From Gammaproteobacteria bacterium (GTDB taxonomy: Bacteria; Pseudomonadota; Gammaproteobacteria; Ga0077536): DNA of 39,191 bases. The notes below the pieces were generated by a model that saw only the letters and a program-made list of their open reading frames with translations, was not told the DNA's origin and made no database searches. The stretch covers positions 1 through 39,191 of the forward strand of contig JAIEQK010000310.1 of NCBI GenBank assembly GCA_019747795.1, given 5' to 3'. Position 1 is the stretch's first letter; the number at the start of each line of letters is the position of its first letter. Shown one piece after another: positions 15,197 to 36,998 of this stretch. The translations under genes and the position numbers were made by a program.

Positions 15197-16318
15197 TCAG
15201 CCCGGATCGGCCGCCGCGGTGTCCATCGCCATGACGCCGTAGTCCTGGCTGTTGAACCGCGTCTTCTTGACGCCGAAGATCGAGCTGGTGGTGATCACCA
15301 CCTGGTTGCCGCGGTCCTCGGTTTCCTCGTTCCAGTCGAAGCGCAGGTTGGTGCCCGGCGAACCGAATGCGCACACACCCGCCTGTTCGCCCAGGAACAG
15401 GTTGCGAGCCGCCGCGACGTTGGCGCCCGCGCCGTAGTCGGTGAAGCGCAGCACGTTCTTGTGCTTGTGCAGGACCACGTTCGCGAGCATGCCCAGGCCG
15501 CCCTTGAAGATCGGGTTGTTCCGACCCTCGGAGGTGGCTGCGGCCTTCTGGATCTCCAGCCAGCCGCCGGCGCCCGACTCGATGCGCAGGTCGTAGGCCA
15601 CGTAGGTGTGCATGAGCAGGACGAAGTGCTCTTCGCCCTCGATCATGATCGGCTGGAGCTGGGGAAGCTCCTCGGTGCCGCCGCCCATGGTCTCGGCCTT
15701 GGTGGACGCGCGCTCCACCAGGTTGCGGGTCATCTTGCCGGCGGAGGTCAGCGTCGCCTTGGACGTGCCGTCGCCGTACATGATGTGGTTCGAGTCCGGC
15801 GCCTGGAGGCTGTTGTTCGCGAAACCGGTGTAGGTGTTGCGGAACAGGTAGCCCGGATTCTGGAAGCCGGTCGTCGCGCCCGGCGTCGGGCCGGACAGGT
15901 AGATGAAGAAAAGCTCGTCGAACAGGCGAGCCCACCACTCGGACTGGCGGCGACGCGCGATGTTGCGCAGGTTGTGCACCGTGCGCTTGCGGGTCATCCG
16001 GCCGCCGGTGTTCACGCCACCGCGCATCTGGTCGATGTAGACCTGGTCGGTGTAGAACTTGAGGTCTTCTTCCTGGCCGCGCAGCGTGTCGTCGCCTTCG
16101 ACGGGCTGCATCTTCATCTGCATGGACAGATCGAAGCTGATCTGTTCGCCGGCTTCGGACTCCAGCTGCGTGAGCATCTGGATCGGGGTGCTGGCGGTTT
16201 CGCCGGCGCCCATGAAACGCTTCGACCAGTAGCTGATCTTGGCGGTGTCGACCGCGAGGAACGCGGAATAGCGCTTTACGGCCTTTGCGTCATTGAGGCC
16301 AATGATGGTGCGAGGCAT
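15197..16318 (-). CDS. Major capsid protein, N4-gp56/DUF4043-like
   Basis: The 373-residue protein has the characteristic segments ISFDLSMQMKMQPVEGDD, RGQEEDLKFYTDQVYIDQ and MRGGVNTGGRMTRKRTVH, the pattern I associate with DUF4043/N4-gp56-family major capsid proteins of the HK97 fold. The C-terminal part is beta-rich with FDWNEETEDRGNQVVITT. It follows portal, scaffold and a CsrA-like gene. GGAG lies eight bases upstream of the ATG, in an 84-base leader holding a GC hairpin. Length and placement fit a high-copy shell protein. This is one of the firmer calls here. Confidence 0.88.
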   Translation of the reverse strand: MPRTIIGLNDAKAVKRYSAFLAVDTAKISYWSKRFMGAGETASTPIQMLTQLESEAGEQISFDLSMQMKMQPVEGDDTLRGQEEDLKFYTDQVYIDQMRGGVNTGGRMTRKRTVHNLRNIARRRQSEWWARLFDELFFIYLSGPTPGATTGFQNPGYLFRNTYTGFANNSLQAPDSNHIMYGDGTSKATLTSAGKMTRNLVERASTKAETMGGGTEELPQLQPIMIEGEEHFVLLMHTYVAYDLRIESGAGGWLEIQKAAATSEGRNNPIFKGGLGMLANVVLHKHKNVLRFTDYGAGANVAAARNLFLGEQAGVCAFGSPGTNLRFDWNEETEDRGNQVVITTSSIFGVKKTRFNSQDYGVMAMDTAAADPG

Positions 16319-17561: not shown

Positions 17562-19811
17562 TTACGCGGCGATGGGTGCCGCAGGTGGTGTAGTAATGGC
17601 CTGCTCTTCGCCGGCGATCGTGTCGTTCACATACGCGATCAGCTGGTCCATGACGGCAGCCATTTGAGGGTTGATGATGATGTCGGTGCTGGTCTGCATG
17701 GCGGCTTGCAGGTTCTGCACGCCGGCGGCGATCGCCTGCTGCTTCTTCAGCAGCGCTTCGGCGCGCGCGGTGAGCGCCTGGTTCTCGGACAGCGCGATCT
17801 CCGCTTCCGCGGCGCGCTGCTGGAGCGCGGCGGCGGCGGCCTCGGCCTGTTCCTTCGCCATGCGCTGCTGCTCAGCCTCGGGACTGCCTTCCTGCGTCGG
17901 ATCTGGCTGGCCGTTGATCTTGCGGATGCGGGCGACTATTTCGTCCTTGTTCGGCCCGTCCCACATTTCCATCACCAGGTCGAGCATGTCGAGCGCGACC
18001 TTGGCGCCCGCCTCGCCCATCTGCGTGAAGTTCGACAGCATTTCGAACAGCTGATCGAACATGGCCTGGCGCGCGTTCTTCCGGTAGTCGGCCAGGTCCA
18101 CCACGAAGTCGGCCTTCGTGGCCGTGATGTCGTTCTCGACGGTCGGCTCGCCGTTCGGCCCCACGCCCACCACGTCGTTGATGGTCATGAATTCGGTCGC
18201 GCCGCGGTCGCTGGTCAGGCGGATGATCTTGGGCGCGCTGTAATACTGCTCGATCAGCGACAGCCGGATCTCGCCTTGGAGCTGGAGCGCGAAGGCGAAA
18301 TTGTCGAACAGCTCCGTGGTGACCACGGCGCCCTCGTTCTGGCGCGCCTCGATGGCCTTGCCGCTGGTGGCGTTTGTCTCGTGGCCCAGGTTCTCGGTGG
18401 TAACGCCGCCGGCCTCGCGGATCATTTGCCGGTTCATGTTGGCGATTTCGATGTGCTGGGCGGCCACCGCGTTGTCGCGCGTGATCTCGAAGCGCTTGTT
18501 GCGCTTGACCGTGATCCAGCCGTCCGGCGCGGCCACCTCCTCGCGCGCCTCGTCGATGTCGTCGACGGCGCCCTCCTCAGCGATCACCTGCGAGGTGTTC
18601 AGGATGTGCTGCGCCTTGGACAGGCGCTTGTTCATGTCCTCCTGCGGGTCGCGCTGGTTGCGGATGGCGCCATAGCAGGCGCCGTCACGCTTCCGGCGGT
18701 AGCCCCAGATGGGCGTGAAGGGGAAGCGGTCGTGCTTGTAGGGGCTCGGCGCGTTGGAGAGCAAGCCGCCCTCGACGAAGATCGCGCACCACACTTCCAT
18801 GCGGATCGCGTTGTAGACGCTGGCCAGGCCCTCTTGCACCATGCCCTGGTGCTGCTCGGGCTCGAACACCTGGCCGTCGGCCTGCGTGTACTCGGGCGCG
18901 AGCTGGTCGTGCACACGCACCACCTGGCGCGCCACGGCCTTGCGATACCAGCACTCCACCAGGCGCACGCGCTCGCGGCGGTTGCCCACCTGGCCACTGA
19001 CGTCCTCGGTGTAGGTGGACGACGTGATGGCGCGGCCGGTGGAGTCCACGCGGTAGTAGAGCTGGACGTCCAGATCGTCGTCGTCGGTCGCGCCATACAG
19101 GTCGTGCGCGCGCGCCGCGGCCTTGATCATGCCCTCGGCGTCCGGGAAGTAGGCCACGGCCACATCCACGTCCGCCCAGCGCGAGCGGAACAGGTAGCGC
19201 GCGTCCGACATATCCGGCTCGGTGGCCAGGTGGTCGTACCAGATGTTGCGCCAGCTCTCAGAGCGCGTGTACAGCGGCTCCTTGGTTGGGTCGCCGCGCA
19301 CGCCATCTTCGAGCCAGCCGATGCCTACGCGCGCGGTGTCGGCGAACGCGCGCGACCGGTGGAACTGCGCGTGGTTCACGTCGTCCGTGTACTTCAGCAG
19401 CTTGGTCTTCACCTCGGCCGGCTTGCGGTCGTCGTCCGTCCGCGGGTAGATATGCCAGTCGAACTTGGTCCGCTTCTGCGTGCCGATGATCCAGTCGATC
19501 ACCGGCTTGATCATGTTGAAGACCAGCGCCGGCTGGCCGCGGCCCTCGATGACCGCGCGGTCGGAGTCGGCCCATTGCAGGCCGTCATAGAAGTCGTCGT
19601 CGATCGCCTGCTCGTAGCGGCCGGCGGCCTGGTCGGTGCGCGCCTTCTGCCACCAGTCCCGGATCATGCGGTAGTCGCGCTCATGCTCCGGCGTGCGGAA
19701 CCGGCTCGGGCCGTCGCCGCCCTTGGCCTGCCTGGCCTGGTCGCCGTCGGGCACCAGGCCGCTGTAGATCGACCGTTCGACCCAGCTGGTGCTTGCGGCT
19801 TCGACTTCCAT
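17562..19811 (-). CDS. Portal protein, P22-type
   Basis: The 749-residue protein is in the size range of P22-like portals. Matching segments include DDDFYDGLQWADSDRAVIEG, GQPALVFNMIKPVIDWIIGT and WRNIWYDHLATEPDMSDAR. A long C-terminal helical barrel-like region, rich in Ala, Glu and Gln (about residues 610-735), follows. It forms the dodecameric ring through which DNA enters and leaves. It follows the terminase genes and precedes scaffold and capsid, the canonical order. The start overlaps the upstream stop by one base (TGATG). Confidence 0.9.
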   Translation of the reverse strand: MEVEAASTSWVERSIYSGLVPDGDQARQAKGGDGPSRFRTPEHERDYRMIRDWWQKARTDQAAGRYEQAIDDDFYDGLQWADSDRAVIEGRGQPALVFNMIKPVIDWIIGTQKRTKFDWHIYPRTDDDRKPAEVKTKLLKYTDDVNHAQFHRSRAFADTARVGIGWLEDGVRGDPTKEPLYTRSESWRNIWYDHLATEPDMSDARYLFRSRWADVDVAVAYFPDAEGMIKAAARAHDLYGATDDDDLDVQLYYRVDSTGRAITSSTYTEDVSGQVGNRRERVRLVECWYRKAVARQVVRVHDQLAPEYTQADGQVFEPEQHQGMVQEGLASVYNAIRMEVWCAIFVEGGLLSNAPSPYKHDRFPFTPIWGYRRKRDGACYGAIRNQRDPQEDMNKRLSKAQHILNTSQVIAEEGAVDDIDEAREEVAAPDGWITVKRNKRFEITRDNAVAAQHIEIANMNRQMIREAGGVTTENLGHETNATSGKAIEARQNEGAVVTTELFDNFAFALQLQGEIRLSLIEQYYSAPKIIRLTSDRGATEFMTINDVVGVGPNGEPTVENDITATKADFVVDLADYRKNARQAMFDQLFEMLSNFTQMGEAGAKVALDMLDLVMEMWDGPNKDEIVARIRKINGQPDPTQEGSPEAEQQRMAKEQAEAAAAALQQRAAEAEIALSENQALTARAEALLKKQQAIAAGVQNLQAAMQTSTDIIINPQMAAVMDQLIAYVNDTIAGEEQAITTPPAAPIAA

Positions 19812-20978: not shown

Positions 20979-23315
20979 TCACGCGGCGCGCCAGTTGCGC
21001 TGCCGCTTCTTCTTCTCGCGGTCGCGCCCGTAGGCGCGCTCGTAGTGCCACTCCTGGCACAGCTGCCGAAAGGCGTCGGCGCCGTGAATGGCGGGGGTCT
21101 TGGCCGGGTTGTCCTTGAACGACTCCAGTCGCTCGTCCCAATCGCGGCGGTAGTTCTCCAGGTGCGCGATGCCGAGTGCACAGCCGCGCTCGCTGAAGCG
21201 CGAGGCGGGCAGCACCAGGCGCACGGCCTCGATGCCGTCCAGCACGCTCGGCACGCGCTCGACCACCTCGATGTTGCGCATGCCCAGGCTTTCGAGATAC
21301 GTGCGCCGCGTCTCGCCCTTGGCCTGGCTCAGCTCGGACACCTCGATGTCGTGCGGCAGGTAGTGCGCGCCGTAGGTGAAGCCGAACTCCTCGCGCACCT
21401 CGCGCAGCAGGTTGACCCAGTACACCAGGCCCTCGGAGTGGCCCTCTTCGTAGCGCAGCCAGCGGTGCTCGCCCAGCGTGACGATGTACTGGTGCCACCA
21501 GATCGCGGTGCTGTCGTTCTTGCCCAGGTCCCAGGTGGTGTTCACCGGGATGCGCGGGTCGAACGGCAGATCGGGCGCGATGCGCTGCTGGCGGCGCAGC
21601 CACACCATCTGCTTGCCGTAGTAGGTGCCCTCGGTCGCGCCCTGGAATGCCTCCGGCGGCGTGCTCGGGTGCTCCCGGTACATGAGGTCCGATTGCGTCT
21701 CGAACTTCTTCGCGTACCAGGCGCGCTGGCCAGGCGTGAGCTTGATGCCCTCGCGCTTCGCCAGGTCCTTGAAGTAGGTTTCCACCTCGCGCGGCACCTG
21801 GACCGTCTTCGGGTTCAGGACGTTCTTGCGGTCGCGCCACCACGGGTAGAAGTGGAAGCGGAAGTCGAGCTGTGACAGCTCGGCGCCCGACTCCAGCCGC
21901 TTGCGCGCGCGCTCGGCGTACTCGTAGAAGTCGCCCTGGCGGCCCTCGGCCGTGCTCTCGATCGTGATGCGCTTGCCGACGTGCACGGTGTTCAGCGCGC
22001 CGGACCGGATTTCCTTGGCCTTGTCCGGGAACTTCGCGCAGATTTTGCCGTGCTCGGAAATGTGCAGCCATTGCAGCGTGCCGCCGCGCATCGAGGTGCC
22101 GCAGCTGATCCGCGAGCCGTGCGGAAAGGTCAGCTCGCGGGCGTTGTCTTCGGTGGTGGCGGCGACCGGCGCCAGGTGCGGGTGCTTCTCCAGCAGCCGG
22201 CGGACCACCCAGCGGATCTTGTCTTCGAAAATGCGCTCGCTGTCCTCACGCGTGTGTGCGATGAGGTGCGCGTGGAAATTCTCGCGCCAGATGCAGGCGT
22301 CCAGCATCTGGATCGCGGTCAGTGTGGTGTTGTGCGACACGAAGCCTTCGGCGATGTACGTGCCGGTGCTGGTCTGCAAATCGATCATCGTTTGCTCGGC
22401 CAGCGGCTCGATGGAGGTAATGGTCGCCCACCCCACGCCGCCGTTTCGCTTGCCCGGAAGCTCTCGGCCTTCCCACCAGCGCGTCCCGATGAATCGCGCG
22501 GGGCGCGTCTTGCCTAGCAGACGGAACAACTCATCCTGCCGGCCGATCTCAATGCGATGCACAGGCTTCGTGCCAATCTTGCTGCGGTCGCCGCAGCGCG
22601 TATCGACCCACTCGCCCGTGTGGAAGCCGCCATCGGCGAGATAGGCGCGCAGCCGGTTGAGGACGGCCCCGGCCACCTGAGAAACGCCCAGCGTCACGCT
22701 ATGGTTCGTGTGGAGCGAGCCTTCACCATCGATCAGCCCGCCGACCCAGCCATCCTCAAACGTCGGCGCTGACCACGGCTTGGTCACCCATCGGACTCGC
22801 GTCCCCACGGTCAGGCGGCCGTGCTTGGTCTTCTCTATGGTGCGCCACTGCGCGTCCGACGCGGCCTTGCGCGACAACCAGGGGTGCTGCCCGGTGCAGA
22901 TTACGGAGCGGCCGTCGTCGAAGGTGACGCGGTAGGCTTTCCGGCACACAGAGACGACGCCTTGGACCGTGGCCGTGCGCATCTTGCGCGCACGCCCCCT
23001 GCCGCCGGGCACGTGCTCGTCTACCGCGACCAGCTCATCACCGATGCGAAGATCGCCGATGCGGACCCAGCGCAGATCAGCTGTGAGCACGTTCGTCCGG
23101 GGGTCCAGACAGAATCCATGCTGGCGACTTTTAAGGATCAGATCGAAGTACCACTGGTTCCAGTAGTAGTCGGTCTGCACCGCGTTGGGGATGAACGGGA
23201 CGGCGTTCGCGTCCTCGTCCACGATCTCGTAGAGGTGCGTGATGCGCCACCACGGATCGGCGAGGCATTCGGCCTCAGTCTTCGGCTGCTTGTACCAGGC
23301 GGGTGTCCACAGCAC
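20979..23315 (-). CDS. terL: Terminase large subunit, interrupted in frame by an intein
   Basis: The 778-residue precursor contains a 261-residue intein (residues 69-329). Joined exteins give 517 residues, normal for a large terminase. The splice site falls in the ATPase Walker A-type motif: KSRQHGF before and TTLTAIQ after, giving KSRQHGFTT. The Walker B and catalytic-acid region is LHISEH (about 417-422). RNase H-like nuclease acidic residues are likely Asp596 (TTWDLGKND), Asp656 (LPHDIE) and Asp748 (GADAFRQ). The protein cuts and pumps DNA into the procapsid through the portal. The start is GTG at 23315, nine bases after the small subunit stop. Without splicing the ATPase should be inactive. 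Confidence 0.93.
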   Translation of the reverse strand: MLWTPAWYKQPKTEAECLADPWWRITHLYEIVDEDANAVPFIPNAVQTDYYWNQWYFDLILKSRQHGFCLDPRTNVLTADLRWVRIGDLRIGDELVAVDEHVPGGRGRARKMRTATVQGVVSVCRKAYRVTFDDGRSVICTGQHPWLSRKAASDAQWRTIEKTKHGRLTVGTRVRWVTKPWSAPTFEDGWVGGLIDGEGSLHTNHSVTLGVSQVAGAVLNRLRAYLADGGFHTGEWVDTRCGDRSKIGTKPVHRIEIGRQDELFRLLGKTRPARFIGTRWWEGRELPGKRNGGVGWATITSIEPLAEQTMIDLQTSTGTYIAEGFVSHNTTLTAIQMLDACIWRENFHAHLIAHTREDSERIFEDKIRWVVRRLLEKHPHLAPVAATTEDNARELTFPHGSRISCGTSMRGGTLQWLHISEHGKICAKFPDKAKEIRSGALNTVHVGKRITIESTAEGRQGDFYEYAERARKRLESGAELSQLDFRFHFYPWWRDRKNVLNPKTVQVPREVETYFKDLAKREGIKLTPGQRAWYAKKFETQSDLMYREHPSTPPEAFQGATEGTYYGKQMVWLRRQQRIAPDLPFDPRIPVNTTWDLGKNDSTAIWWHQYIVTLGEHRWLRYEEGHSEGLVYWVNLLREVREEFGFTYGAHYLPHDIEVSELSQAKGETRRTYLESLGMRNIEVVERVPSVLDGIEAVRLVLPASRFSERGCALGIAHLENYRRDWDERLESFKDNPAKTPAIHGADAFRQLCQEWHYERAYGRDREKKKRQRNWRAA
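22329..23111 (-). mobile_element. Intein with LAGLIDADG-type endonuclease domain in terL
   Basis: The element encodes 261 residues. It begins with Cys1 (CLDPRTNVLT, block A), has a block B TGQH at intein residues 73-76, and ends GTYIAEGFVSHN with the terminal His-Asn, followed by Thr as the +1 extein residue. A single LAGLIDADG-like motif, WVGGLIDGEG, sits at about 122-131. No clear second copy is seen, so the endonuclease would act as a dimer or be decaying. All splicing residues look intact. Boundaries follow from the extein reading KSRQHGF / TTLT. Confidence 0.9.
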
Positions 23316-23324
23316 CTGGCAACG

Positions 23325-23876
23325 TCACTTCCCCACGGCGCCCGGCGGCACCAGCGGGGTAGCGGATGCCTGGCGCACGACTGCCACCAGCGGATTCTCG
23401 GTATCGCCGCGCGCGGTCAGATCGACCTTCACGCCGTACTTCTTCGGCAGCATCTTGGCCGCGATGGACAGGCGCGCATCGACGCGCAGCTTCGAGCGCT
23501 GGATCGCCTCGTTGTTCACCGCGTAGCCCAGGACGTTGCCGTCCTTGTCCTTGCGCTCCATCCAGTCGTTGCGACCGTCGTCGGCGATGTCCAGGACGTC
23601 GTCGAGGTTCACTTCCTGCTGAACCTCTCTTGCAAGCGTGTATTGGTCAAGAAATTGCTTGTGCAATTCCGGCGGGTTTGGTCGGTTCGCCATCAGCAAC
23701 CAGGTCAGCAGCGTTTGCCAGGACGGCATGTCCGGGTCTTCGCTAATCGACCGCAGCGATCGCGGCTGGACCAGGCGCAGGCATATCTCGTCGATCAGCT
23801 CTTGCGTCAGCTTGCTCGGGCGGCCTGGGCCTGGCCGCTTCTCACCGGCGGCGCTCTTTTCGCTCTTCTTGGGCAT
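23325..23876 (-). CDS. terS: Terminase small subunit, putative
   Basis: The start is taken at the ATG at 23876 (183 residues), with GAGAAG about eight bases upstream; the frame is open to 23945 but that part overlaps another small gene. A basic N-terminus precedes GRPSKLTQELIDEICLRL and a helix-turn-helix-like segment (SLRSISEDPDMPSWQTLLTWL, split by one residue turn), followed by an oligomerising helix (REVQQEVNLDDVLDIADD). This is the usual plan of small terminases that bind pac or cos DNA. It lies directly before the large subunit. Family assignment is by architecture and position. Confidence 0.82.
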   Translation of the reverse strand: MPKKSEKSAAGEKRPGPGRPSKLTQELIDEICLRLVQPRSLRSISEDPDMPSWQTLLTWLLMANRPNPPELHKQFLDQYTLAREVQQEVNLDDVLDIADDGRNDWMERKDKDGNVLGYAVNNEAIQRSKLRVDARLSIAAKMLPKKYGVKVDLTARGDTENPLVAVVRQASATPLVPPGAVGK

Positions 23877-24048
23877 TGTGGGTCTTCTCGCGCTCGTCGC
23901 GCGATTTAGTTCGGCGAATCCGGCGCCCATCACCATGCCCACCACCTGGCTTCTGGTGCGCCGGATTGCCGAGGCTGGCGTACAGCGAAGACATACCGGC
24001 TGATGCGGGGTGGGCGCCGGCCATCTTCGTGTGCGGTACTTTCTTCAT
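23842..24048 (-). CDS. Small basic protein upstream of terS
   Basis: The 68-residue product is Lys/Arg/His/Gly-rich (KKVPHTKMAGAH, RRIRRTKSRDERE). It begins five bases after the stop of a 16-residue frame and overlaps the terS start by 35 bases. It has no strong ribosome binding site of its own, suggesting coupling to the preceding mini-gene. Its basic nature suggests nucleic acid contact. It could also be a non-coding by-product of the leader region. Confidence 0.55.
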   Translation of the reverse strand: MKKVPHTKMAGAHPASAGMSSLYASLGNPAHQKPGGGHGDGRRIRRTKSRDEREKTHNAQEERKERRR

Positions 24049-24121: not shown

Positions 24122-24646
24122 TTACCGCGCTCGCTTGAGCGCGGAATACTTGCTTTTCCCGCCTTTCACCTTAGCGTGGGGCCTGGCGAATGCTTCGAGG
24201 GCTGTCCTGGACTGCGCCGCCAAGTCGGCGGCCTCCTGAACGGCGGGCGCGGGCCGGAACCACTCGCCTCGCTCGCGGTGTTCGGCCAGCGCGGCGTGCA
24301 GGGCGCGCTCGACCCAGTGCTCTGTCTCCACGCACGCCAGCACGACGATTGGGAGCGGGCAGAACGTGCGTGCGTCAGCGATCCGCTGCTTGATGCCGCG
24401 GCGCGTCTGGCCGATCTTGATGAAGCCGCCAGCCTCGACGAAGTAGACGTGCGTGGGCGTGACGTTCAGGCCCTCCCAGCACTTCTGCTGGTCGGGAGTA
24501 AGCGCGCGCTTTGCAAGATCGTCGTAGTGGGACTCGCAGTAGATCGAGAAGGTCAGCGCCTCAGACTCACAGCCAGGGAATTCGCACGAGCGGGACTCGC
24601 GCGGCGCGGCTGGTGAGGGGCGGAAAAGCTGCTTGCGCGCTCTCAC
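24122..24646 (-). CDS. GIY-YIG family (T5orf172/MUG113-like) protein with zinc-binding N-terminus
   Basis: The 174-residue product starts with GTG. An N-terminal cysteine cluster (CEFPGCES, then IYCESHY, residues about 21-41) suggests a small zinc-binding module. Residues about 66-130 carry the T5orf172/MUG113 pattern: HVYFVEAGGFIKIGQTRRG, RIADARTF, then HWVERALHAALAEHRERGEWF, with the conserved KIGQT, Glu and GEWF. These are GIY-YIG-superfamily domains found in phage homing or repair-like nucleases. It stands at the head of the terminase genes. The basic C-terminus may bind DNA. Confidence 0.75.
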   Translation of the reverse strand: MRARKQLFRPSPAAPRESRSCEFPGCESEALTFSIYCESHYDDLAKRALTPDQQKCWEGLNVTPTHVYFVEAGGFIKIGQTRRGIKQRIADARTFCPLPIVVLACVETEHWVERALHAALAEHRERGEWFRPAPAVQEAADLAAQSRTALEAFARPHAKVKGGKSKYSALKRAR

Positions 24647-27118: not shown

Positions 27119-27411
27119 CGCCGCCCTCGCTCGCGCATGCTGGCGACGTGCCGATCCACATCGTCGAACGTCTCGACGATCACGATCTTCGAGCCCTTCC
27201 AGGTCTGGTGCAGGTCGTCCTCCTTGGGCGTCAGCTTCCGATTGCTCTTCGGCTGGCGCGGGTCTTTCACCTCGACCAGGTCGGTCACGCCGCCGGCGCC
27301 CACCACCAGGTCCCAGCTCGCGAAGCGCGACACGACGATCACCGATGCCAGGTTCGCCTGGTAGCGGGCGATGATCTCGTCCTGGTTCCCGTCGCTGCGG
27401 TGCGTCCTCAT
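27115..27411 (-). CDS. VRR-NUC-like PD-(D/E)xK endonuclease, putative
   Basis: The 98-residue protein has NQDEIIARYQANLASVIVV, then SWDLVVGAGGVTDLVEVKD, and LTPKEDDLHQTWKG. The Asp in WDLVVG and Glu-x-Lys in EVKD (residues about 34 and 48-50) form the PD-(D/E)xK catalytic core, followed by the helix seen in VRR-NUC-like phage nucleases that resolve branched DNA. It is coupled to both neighbours by ATGA overlaps. A Holliday-junction-resolving role is plausible. Confidence 0.72.
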   Translation of the reverse strand: MRTHRSDGNQDEIIARYQANLASVIVVSRFASWDLVVGAGGVTDLVEVKDPRQPKSNRKLTPKEDDLHQTWKGSKIVIVETFDDVDRHVASMRERGRR

Positions 27412-27863
27412 TGCGGGTTGTCCGGCATCAGCTCGACCATGCGCGCGACGTCGTCGGCGTCCAGGTCGTGCCAGTATTCGGCGGCCTGGCGGCAGATCCC
27501 TTTGTAGGTCTCCTCGAACTCGATTTCATCCATGTCCCCGAAGGACAGCGACAAGGGGATGCGCTGCACCACGGTTTGGCCGGCCAGGCGGTAGGCGATC
27601 TCCTCGCAGCCCACGCCGGACTCCAGTTGCAGCCGCTTCAGGACGCGGTGCGCCCCCATTCCCTCGAATGCCTCCACGCTCTCAGCCATGAGTTGCCCCA
27701 GCCTGTGTGCGAGGCGGTGAAAGCGCGGGTTCCTGAGCTTCACGATCGTGATGAAGGCGAGGTCGCCACGCCGCAACCCTAGCTCCCTGAGCCTCAGCCT
27801 GGCGTTGTGGTCTGCCGGGATTAGGCAACCCGCGTCCACCAGCATCGCGATGCACTCGCGCAT
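27408..27863 (-). CDS. DUF1367 family phage protein
   Basis: I place the start at the ATG at 27863 (151 residues, MRECIAMLVDAGCLIPADHN); the frame is open to 27998 but that part is Pro/Ser-rich shadow. The segment RRGDLAFITIVKLRNPRFHR matches DUF1367, whose members have a KxRnpkFHr core. The C-terminal half (PLSLSFGDMDEIEFEETYKG, CRQAAEYWH) is also typical. Function is unknown; the family is found in early operons of lambdoid phages. Confidence 0.72.
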   Translation of the reverse strand: MRECIAMLVDAGCLIPADHNARLRLRELGLRRGDLAFITIVKLRNPRFHRLAHRLGQLMAESVEAFEGMGAHRVLKRLQLESGVGCEEIAYRLAGQTVVQRIPLSLSFGDMDEIEFEETYKGICRQAAEYWHDLDADDVARMVELMPDNPQ

Positions 27864-28047
27864 GCGCTTCCGCGACTTCGAACGCTTCCTCTTTCGTGGG
27901 CGATCGGCCGATCCACGCCCCACAGAGGTAGACGTTGAACCAGGCGACGCCGGCGCCGTCGGTGTAGGTGACCCGATAGGGGTGGGCTGACCAGACACCG
28001 GACTCGACTTTGCGCCAGCTCAGGCGAGCTGCGGCTTCTTCGTCCAC
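27682..28047 (-). CDS. Small phage protein whose 3' part overlaps DUF1367
   Basis: The 121-residue frame starts with GTG. Only the first 65 residues look protein-like: LSWRKVESGVWSAHPYRVTY, WFNVYLCGAWIGRSP, then EEAFEVAEAHARVH, a compact beta-beta-alpha module of a type seen in other phage early genes. The remaining 55 residues overlap the DUF1367 gene by 182 bases and have Pro/Arg/Gln-rich composition. Either the overlap is real or the original stop has been lost. Function is unknown. Confidence 0.55.
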   Translation of the reverse strand: MDEEAAARLSWRKVESGVWSAHPYRVTYTDGAGVAWFNVYLCGAWIGRSPTKEEAFEVAEAHARVHRDAGGRGLPNPGRPQRQAEAQGARVAAWRPRLHHDREAQEPALSPPRTQAGATHG

Positions 28048-34524: not shown

Positions 34525-35796
34525 ATGTCTACGTTGCCAACTGTTCGCCAGACCGGGGGGCTCGCCATCGCTGGCGGGCCCTCCGTTCTCGGCGAAAAAC
34601 CCGTGCGCCTGCCGACGGCAGGCAAGATCCGCCCCGGCATCAAGCGCCTCACGCGCCAGGCCGAGGCCAACCCCGACGCGCGCCGCGCCTACGACGAAGG
34701 CGTGGCCAAGGGCCAGGATTGGGGCACCATCGAGAAGGCGGTGCGCCAGGCGCTGAAGCTGGGCGATGACGCGCGATCGCCGATGACGCCGCAGAACACG
34801 CCCTACTTCCACGTTTGCCGCGCCGACTTCGTCATGCCCGAGATCGCCGATCGGATATTGGATTTGTACGGCGAAGATCGCGGCCAGGGCCGTCACCTAT
34901 ACCGCTTCCCGATCGTGCTGCCGGTGGACAACTGGCAGGCGGTGCTGCCGCACTCGCTCAAGGCCCACAAGCGCAACGAGCTGGTCTATTGGAGCGAATA
35001 CGGCGCGGACGGCGTGCGCTATTGCAAGATGCACGAGCCGCTGCGCGTCGATCCTCAGTCGAAGCGCGCGGCGCGCCCGTTCGGCGGCCGCCGGACCATG
35101 CTCCGCCCCGAGTTCTCCGGCCGGTGCGAGCCCGAGCAGTGCCCGCAGTACCAGTCCACGCCGCAGCAGTGCCGGCTGACCGGGAGCTTCATCTTCTACA
35201 TCCCGCAGATCCCCGGTGCCGGCGCCATCGAGCTGCCCATGACGAGCTTCTACGGGCTCCAGGGCATCCGCCAGCAGCTGGAGCTGATGACCTACGTGCG
35301 CGGCCGGATCAGCGGCACGCACAACGGCCAGCCGATGTTCTGGCTGACGAAGCGCCAGGAGGAGGTGTCCATGCTCGACCTGGAGCAGGGTATCCCGAAG
35401 CGCGTCACGCAGTGGATCACGACGCTGGAAGGCGCGGTCGATATGACGGCGCTCCTCACCGCGCCCGAGGAAGACCACGACGACCTGGTGACGCATGCAG
35501 CCCAGGTGCTCGAAGGGCCAGGCGTCACCATCGAGGGCGCGGCCACCGAGGCAGAGGAAGGCCCGCCCGATGATGGCGGCCCGGCGGTGAAGGATCTGCA
35601 AGCGAGCATCGCCGGCGAGCTGCGCGACCTGCGCGTCCAGTGGGCGACGTTCACCCCCTACGCCAACCACAAGTTCGGTGCCGACTGGACGGAAGACCGC
35701 ACGAAGCTGGCCGACATCCTGGCTGAGCTTCAGTCCGCCGTGTCGCACGACCAGTACCTCGAAAAGATCCACCTCACCATGGAGGACGCGCCATGA
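34525..35796 (+). CDS. gp3-like (recombination directionality factor-like) zinc-binding protein
   Basis: The 423-residue protein starts MSTLPTVRQTGGLAIAGG, with AGGAAGG before the ATG. The core (about residues 85-260) includes NTPYFHVCRADFVMPEIADR, RHLYRFPIVLPVDNWQAVLP, a cysteine cluster CEPEQCPQYQSTPQQCRLTG (four Cys, likely zinc), and IELPMTSFYGLQGIRQQLEL. From memory this pattern belongs to gp3-like phage proteins, sometimes labelled hydrolase/metal-binding. The C-terminus is acidic with a helical end. It is coupled to the SbcD-like gene. A role in recombination or single-strand DNA handling is likely; directionality factor function is not shown. Confidence 0.7.
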   Translation: MSTLPTVRQTGGLAIAGGPSVLGEKPVRLPTAGKIRPGIKRLTRQAEANPDARRAYDEGVAKGQDWGTIEKAVRQALKLGDDARSPMTPQNTPYFHVCRADFVMPEIADRILDLYGEDRGQGRHLYRFPIVLPVDNWQAVLPHSLKAHKRNELVYWSEYGADGVRYCKMHEPLRVDPQSKRAARPFGGRRTMLRPEFSGRCEPEQCPQYQSTPQQCRLTGSFIFYIPQIPGAGAIELPMTSFYGLQGIRQQLELMTYVRGRISGTHNGQPMFWLTKRQEEVSMLDLEQGIPKRVTQWITTLEGAVDMTALLTAPEEDHDDLVTHAAQVLEGPGVTIEGAATEAEEGPPDDGGPAVKDLQASIAGELRDLRVQWATFTPYANHKFGADWTEDRTKLADILAELQSAVSHDQYLEKIHLTMEDAP

Positions 35797-36998
35797 TCCG
35801 CGTAGCCCACCTTTCCGACATTCACTACTGCGACAAGTACCTGGCCGAAGTCGATGGGTGCATGGACGCGGCGATCCATCACATCCAGCGCAACCCGGTC
35901 GATCTGATCGTGCTGAGCGGCGACACCTTCGATCACCGGCTGGAGCAGAACAGTCCTGCGCTGTTCGCGGCGATCGACGCGGTGACGGAGTTGGCCAACC
36001 TTGCGCCGACGCTGATCCTGCAAGGAACGCTCTCGCACGACGCGCCCAACGCGGTCGGCATCTTCAGCAACCTGATGACGGGCTGCCCGATCTTCGTGGC
36101 GGACACCATCTGCCAGGTGGTGCTGTGGAACGACGCGCTGCTGCGGCCGGACTCACTGCCTGACGGCGCGGTTCCATCGAACGCACAGGCGCTGATCAGC
36201 TGCCTGCCATCCATCAACAAGGGCCAGGTCGCGGCCGCCGTCGGCGCCGAGAAAGCCGCGGAGTCGGTCGGCGAGCACGTCCAGCAGCTGCTGCGCGGCT
36301 GGGGTGGGAGCAACAACCGCCAGGCGCGCGCGCTGGGCGTCCCGACCATCCTGGTCAGCCACGGCACCGTGAGCGGCAGCGTGTCCGAGCACGGCGTGCC
36401 CATGATGGGGCTCGATCACGAGTTCACCACCGGCGCGCTGTTCGAGGCGAACTGCTCCGCCGTGATGCTGGGCCACATCCACAAGCACCAGGCATGGGCA
36501 GAGGAGAACGACGTCATCGCCTACCCCGGAAGCCTGGGCCGCCTGCACTTCGGCGAGCACGATCCGAAGGGCTTCCTCATGTGGAGGGTCAGCGGCGACG
36601 GCGCGAGCTTCGAATTCATCGAGACACCCGCGCGCCAGCTGGTCGACATCACGTTCCCTGGCTCGCCGGACATGGAAGAGCTAGCACGCCTGGCGAAGGA
36701 AGTGCCCGCGGGCTCGCACGTCCGAGTCAGATTCTCGATTGACGAGGAATTTCGCCAGTCAATCGACAGGACCGCGATGGCGGCCCTGTTCGAAGGGGAA
36801 GTGAAGATCGAGGGACGAATAAACCCGGTCCAGCGCCAACGATCTGCTGGCATAGGAAGCGCCTCCTCCATCCACGAAAAGCTGAAGCGCTACTGCGAGT
36901 CTGCTGGAATCGAGCCTGGTCCGCTTTTGGAGCGCCTTGAGCAGATCCTTGTGTGCGACCCCTCTTCCCAGAGGGAGGCGTCTGACCGTGCCGCGTAA
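35793..36998 (+). CDS. SbcD/Mre11-like nuclease subunit
   Basis: The 401-residue protein shows the calcineurin-like phosphoesterase motifs: HLSDIHY (DxH), LSGDTFDH (GDxxD), LQGTLSHD (here GTxSHD in place of GNHD), VSHGTVSG and MLGHIHKH (GHxHxH). This places it with phage SbcD/Mre11 proteins, which with an SbcC/Rad50 ATPase process DNA ends and hairpins. The replaced GNHD motif is seen in other phage relatives as well. The ATGA overlap joins it to the upstream gene. The SbcC-like partner is separated by an HNH gene. Confidence 0.85.

Follow-up and report, generated by a model that had tools for sequence, protein, structure and literature searches.

An intein in the ATPase loop of a phage large terminase appears to represent a mobile lineage of uncultivated phages

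The window, by which we mean the whole 39,191-nt stretch of DNA analysed, contains a phage large terminase gene (terL, 20979..23315, minus strand) with an in-frame intein (22329..23111, minus strand). The open reading frame starts with GTG and encodes a 778-residue precursor, with a predicted spliced product of 517 residues (778-261). The N-extein of 68 codons (23112..23315, minus strand) ends in LILKSRQHGF, and the C-extein (20979..22328, minus strand) runs from TTLT to the stop codon, covering the remainder of the ATPase domain and then a presumed nuclease domain. Neighboring genes encode an Sf6-like terminase small subunit (terS, 23325..23945, minus strand; PF20901, E 1.5e-31), a P22-like portal protein (17562..19811, minus strand; PF16510, E 2.7e-162), and a major head protein (Phage_capsid_3, 15197-16318), indicating that terL belongs to a head and packaging module. 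Phage large terminases match the C-terminal 449 residues of the terL product, with 38-43% identity for the annotated ones listed, and no isolated-phage record spanned 80% of the interrupted TerL. The contig ends carry no exact direct terminal repeat of 20-200 bp.

Several other genes in the window are worth recording. Upstream of terS lies a gene with a T5orf172/MUG113 (GIY-YIG-like) nuclease domain (24122-24646, minus strand), which could be a free-standing homing endonuclease. A NinB/Orf-like recombination mediator (27408-27998, minus strand) and an SbcD-like nuclease subunit (35793-36998, plus strand) could serve repair in homing. The SbcD-like gene is immediately preceded by a gene for a Gp3-like protein (recombination directionality factor-like, PF18897; 34525-35796, plus strand), which lies on the other strand from the packaging genes. 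A second intein was considered in the SbcD-like gene itself, where the Metallophos match is longer than the profile, but its translation contains no intein.

Judged from its sequence, terL carries a class 1 intein of 261 residues. The insert of 261 codons remains in frame, and the plus strand over the same interval contains stop codons. It begins with CLDP and finishes with GFVSHN, followed directly by TTLT. The N-terminal splicing (HINT) half comprises residues 1-110 with blocks A and B (22782..23111, minus strand), and the C-terminal splicing half comprises residues 226-261 with blocks F and G, ending in HN (22329..22436, minus strand). Block B reads T73-G-Q-H76, and C1, H76, E130, H260, and N261 are invariant in an alignment of 71 sequences. 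The +1 residue is Thr in this TerL and Thr, Ser, or Cys among the listed relatives. The NCBIfam model NF038136, built for an intein-bearing protein, covers intein residues 1-261 (64.9 bits, E 6.5e-18). Matches to curated splicing models fell below their cut-offs, at 22.7 bits vs. 35.8 for the Pfam model Intein_splicing PF14890 (E 9.6e-5) and 22.2 bits vs. 24.5 for TIGR01445 (E 2.1e-4); relatives reach E 8.9e-10. An AlphaFold2 model built from the 71-sequence alignment (pLDDT 95.7, pTM 0.91) predicts a HINT splicing domain into which a single complete LAGLIDADG unit is inserted, and it superimposes on gp41-1 inteins with Z 19.5-19.7 and 1.4 Å over 123 residues (VIA-align; Z 19.7 for 6riz). It supersedes an earlier model from nine sequences in which the nuclease was poor (mean pLDDT 43-45 at residues 111-140). 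The NF038136 match, the splicing residues, and the HINT model together bear out the initial annotation, which had called the element an intein.

The exact boundaries could be checked against TerLs that lack the insert. When joined, the exteins align with five intein-less TerLs of isolated phages without a gap at the junction, where those proteins read LKARQ[LM]G[FY][ST]T, in agreement with the earlier statement that 261 residues split KSRQHGF from TTLT. We also surveyed the 80 closest TerLs in IMG/VR, found by a scan with the C-extein. All 79 readable ones were empty, 78 by automatic call and one (L109, KSRRHGM^TTL, with the caret marking the insertion point) by eye; the truncated L111 was left out of the count. 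The closest TerL found, L100, is 59% identical over the C-extein and reads LLKSRQHGF^TTLL with no insert. Intein-less alleles therefore do exist in related terminases, and a search for close homologs carrying the 261 residues as a normal insert found none.

A TerL profile alignment to T4 gp17 places the junction at RQLGK^TT, the classic P-loop position. The earlier description of a Walker A-type motif is thus right as to position, with the refinement that the residue aligned with the Walker A Lys is Phe here. Lys62 at the motif start may take over the role of that Lys, as we presume by analogy with other terminases whose Walker A motifs are deviant. The empty-site and gp17 alignments likewise uphold the view that the element has a strongly conserved target in the ATPase loop. 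Mycobacteriophage TerL1-a (PMC5050341) and archaeal MCM-a (PMC10643990) are inserted at the same P-loop position.

The predicted homing endonuclease domain occupies residues 112-222 (22446..22778, minus strand; AlphaFold2 pLDDT 95.7). Residues 122-131 (22719..22748, minus strand) form its LAGLIDADG motif, WVGGLIDGEG, which includes E130, the presumed catalytic acid. In the model, helices 118-130, 149-160, and 192-202 and strands 131-134, 140-146, 165-170, and 184-189 form one full alpha-beta-beta-alpha-beta-beta-alpha unit. Of the 71 relatives, 18 gave a Pfam LAGLIDADG_3 match, and a motif scan found exactly one motif, of the type W[MFVI]xGxxDGE, in every terminase-loop relative. Neither the scan nor the model revealed a second LAGLIDADG unit, confirming the earlier observation of only one copy.

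That observation had left the endonuclease as either a dimer type or a decaying one. Across close pairs in the lineage, nuclease dN/dS was 0.05-0.19, with synonymous sites often near saturation. Because the window's intein has no close counterpart, the selection acting on its nuclease is extrapolated from relatives. Still, the single motif is common to the ~60 loop inteins and their nuclease is under purifying selection, which argues that it does not reflect decay. The invariant E130 and the complete modeled unit point the same way, and from sequence and model we favor a nuclease of the homodimer type. A homodimeric LAGLIDADG enzyme is expected to prefer a roughly palindromic target. Dyad symmetry of the target showed no excess in intein-bearing vs. 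empty alleles, which counts against the homodimer reading, and no conservation was seen at third codon positions of the target.

Approximately 60 terminase-loop relatives were found in IMG/VR, and Mesobacterium pallidum and a single-cell genome each contributed one more. Most are inserted at the main position, Gx^[ST]. Others occupy shifted positions, namely K^CRQ (L049 and L066), two residues before the Lys (L025, L055, and L027), and G^CTT (L070). One loop thus offers four neighboring positions. Inteins at the three shifted positions have Cys as the +1 residue, and those at the main position have Thr or Ser. The L070 intein lies one residue upstream of the site in its close relatives (G^CTT vs. 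Gx^ST), with Cys replacing the -1 residue, amounting to a natural one-codon shift of the site.

Further relatives, 30-37% identical, interrupt other proteins (L078-L099, L028, and L029). These show that the same intein clade is found in many phage and bacterial proteins, several of them at recurring sites (e.g., YGVDMA.D^ and ISFPPTY^). Within the host assembly, no relative was found besides the terL intein. One genome from this host family includes a contig with a Pham3880-like terminase that carries a related intein (L012, at G034:C714, reverse strand, in a 980-aa frame), and its site is of the same kind as in Mycobacterium phage LinStu. This may reflect Bixzunavirus-like phages outside the cultured mycobacteriophages or a misbinned phage contig.

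Comparison of inteins with their host proteins points to horizontal movement. Inteins that share 61-64% identity with the one in the window interrupt TerLs whose C-exteins are only 35-42% identical to the window's, and the intein was the more similar part in 99% of 1824 pairs. However, inteins might simply evolve more slowly than the extein, and therefore two sharper tests matter. In the first, the grouping of L036 with L041, which has a support of 99 in the intein tree, was rejected by the extein data (p-AU 0.001). In the reverse direction, AU tests on intein data did not reject the extein clades {L044,L060,L054,L066}, {L037,L068,L071}, and {L022,L040}, and vertical descent was not rejected in two such tests of extein clades (p 0.35 and 0.17). 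The second test is the pair of sister phages L064 and L069, whose extein DNA is 84% (N) and 90% (C) identical and whose inteins are only 60% identical. Flank identity drops to 60-70% in the 80 bp just before the intein but is mostly 80-100% farther upstream and downstream, which confines the divergent tract to the 5' side. Such a pattern is expected if one intein allele replaced another with co-conversion on the 5' side, and flank co-conversion is established for phage intron homing (PMC3943268). Taken together, the sequences indicate that the lineage moves horizontally between diverged terminases.

A 5' codon footprint is visible in the window's terL itself. Codons -11 to -1 relative to the intein (23112..23144, minus strand) include unusual A/T-ending ones (CTT AAA AGT ... 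CAT GGA), presumably a 5' co-conversion tract or a remnant of the homing target. Of the 11 codons from -8 to +3, six end in A/T, vs. 6% over the rest of the extein. Across 29 GC-rich intein-bearing TerLs, A/T-ending codons are most enriched from -11 to -1 (z 7.2), and 36 empty TerLs have no such enrichment around the site (codons -8 to +3, z 0.6); because the sequences are related, z is not a strict probability here. We favor a conversion tract as the explanation, with target constraint or a translational effect as alternatives.

We consider it very probable that the element is a homing-competent intein of class 1 and that the phage-borne lineage to which it belongs targets the terminase DNA encoding the Walker A loop. 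Following the conserved chemistry of such elements, Cys1 would attack the Phe68-Cys1 bond after translation, the chain would pass to the +1 Thr, and Asn261 would cyclize. The exteins would then be joined as KSRQHGFTTLT, restoring the ATPase loop. It is reasonable to suppose, as the initial annotation did, that packaging depends on splicing. The intein would dimerize through its single LAGLIDADG helix, and the dimer would cut intein-less terL of co-infecting phages at the ATPase loop. Repair off the intein-bearing copy would insert the element and drag in some 5' flanking DNA.

The most plausible of the competing accounts, though unlikely in our view, is that this copy splices while its endonuclease is already inactive, so that no homing occurs. 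In favor of this, the branch leading to the window's copy is rather long (0.62), and the scans turned up no twin that had diverged recently. Against this, E130 and the LAGLIDADG glycines are intact, the reading frame is open, the modeled unit is complete, and nuclease dN/dS is low in close pairs elsewhere in the lineage. That the insert is instead an ordinary domain kept in the mature terminase, with no splicing at all, is hardly credible. It would fit an in-frame insert, but such a domain would separate two residues of the ATP-binding loop, the splicing residues are invariant in 71 sequences, TerLs without the insert are complete, and related terminase inteins splice (PMC5050341).

It could also be argued that conditional splicing times packaging and that the intein is kept as a partly regulatory device. 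An essential motor carries the intein in its ATPase loop, and a sensor function has been proposed for several inteins at sites of this kind (PMC5050341). However, five tested mycobacteriophage terminase inteins spliced quickly (PMC5050341), the intein is evidently dispensable given that all readable close TerLs lack it, and homing accounts for the data here. We therefore regard a regulatory role as very unlikely and retain the homing-competent intein as our preferred reading. An extended version of that reading would join all of these features in a phage-specific lineage with a homodimeric nuclease, moving among unrelated terminases via the few bases that code for KxRQxGx[S/T]T, shifting over four neighboring positions, leaving a one-sided 5' conversion tract, and gating packaging through splicing. 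We offer this fuller picture only tentatively, and it is probably not correct in its entirety.

These results extend the terminase ATP-loop inteins, described mainly from mycobacteriophages, to a wide lineage in uncultivated phages in which a single LAGLIDADG motif would be a stable trait. The L064/L069 allele replacement and the 5' codon footprint may serve as natural records of homing. With empty, filled, and shifted sites all available, the adaptation of one intein lineage to neighboring splice positions becomes testable. The low scores with curated splicing models and the lack of any isolated-phage record matching most of the interrupted TerL also illustrate how automatic annotation can miss such elements.

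Among known systems, inteins at the P-loop and elsewhere in terminases have been described in mycobacteriophages, where five splice fast and two cut DNA (PMC5050341). TerL1-a and TerL1-b are also located in the Walker A loop of phage TerL (PMC5050341), and TerL1-a, between the invariant Lys and Thr, uses the same junction as judged by the T4 gp17 alignment. Their host terminase family, however, differs from this one. The nucleases of BAKA (TerL1-b) and Bethlehem (TerL1-c) have LAGLIDADG motifs in blocks C and E (PMC5050341), compared with one motif here, and annotated Mycobacterium phage TerL genes (e.g., Dallas) match only intein residues 6-84 (E ~0.04). Full-length relatives are found in other proteins. 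The intein of LinStu gp250 (Bixzunavirus C1, Pham3880-type) is 32% identical (E 5e-31) with one DGEG-type LAGLIDADG motif. Pham3880-type inteins are, however, located at the end of the ATPase domain rather than in the P-loop, which their terminase-like host protein is said to lack, and the Pham3880-g intein of ScottMcG (gp245) is among those that splice (PMC5050341). The portal-protein intein of Gordonia phage Minos (gp8) is also 32% identical with one LAGLIDADG motif, at an unrelated site. The Rv2578c-type radical SAM intein (NF038136) gives the best curated match over the 261 residues, with the intein part alone being shared and the host protein unrelated. The HINT fold is held in common with gp41-1, other solved mini-inteins, PI-SceI, and TliVMA (Z 16-20); gp41-1 has no nuclease, and PI-SceI-type nucleases have two LAGLIDADG units. 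A literature search, with subscription journals mostly outside its reach, found no report of P-loop TerL inteins beyond mycobacteriophages or of single-LAGLIDADG inteins. On the sequence evidence, then, the terL intein appears to be a well-documented new branch of a known selfish element that is common in uncultivated phages.
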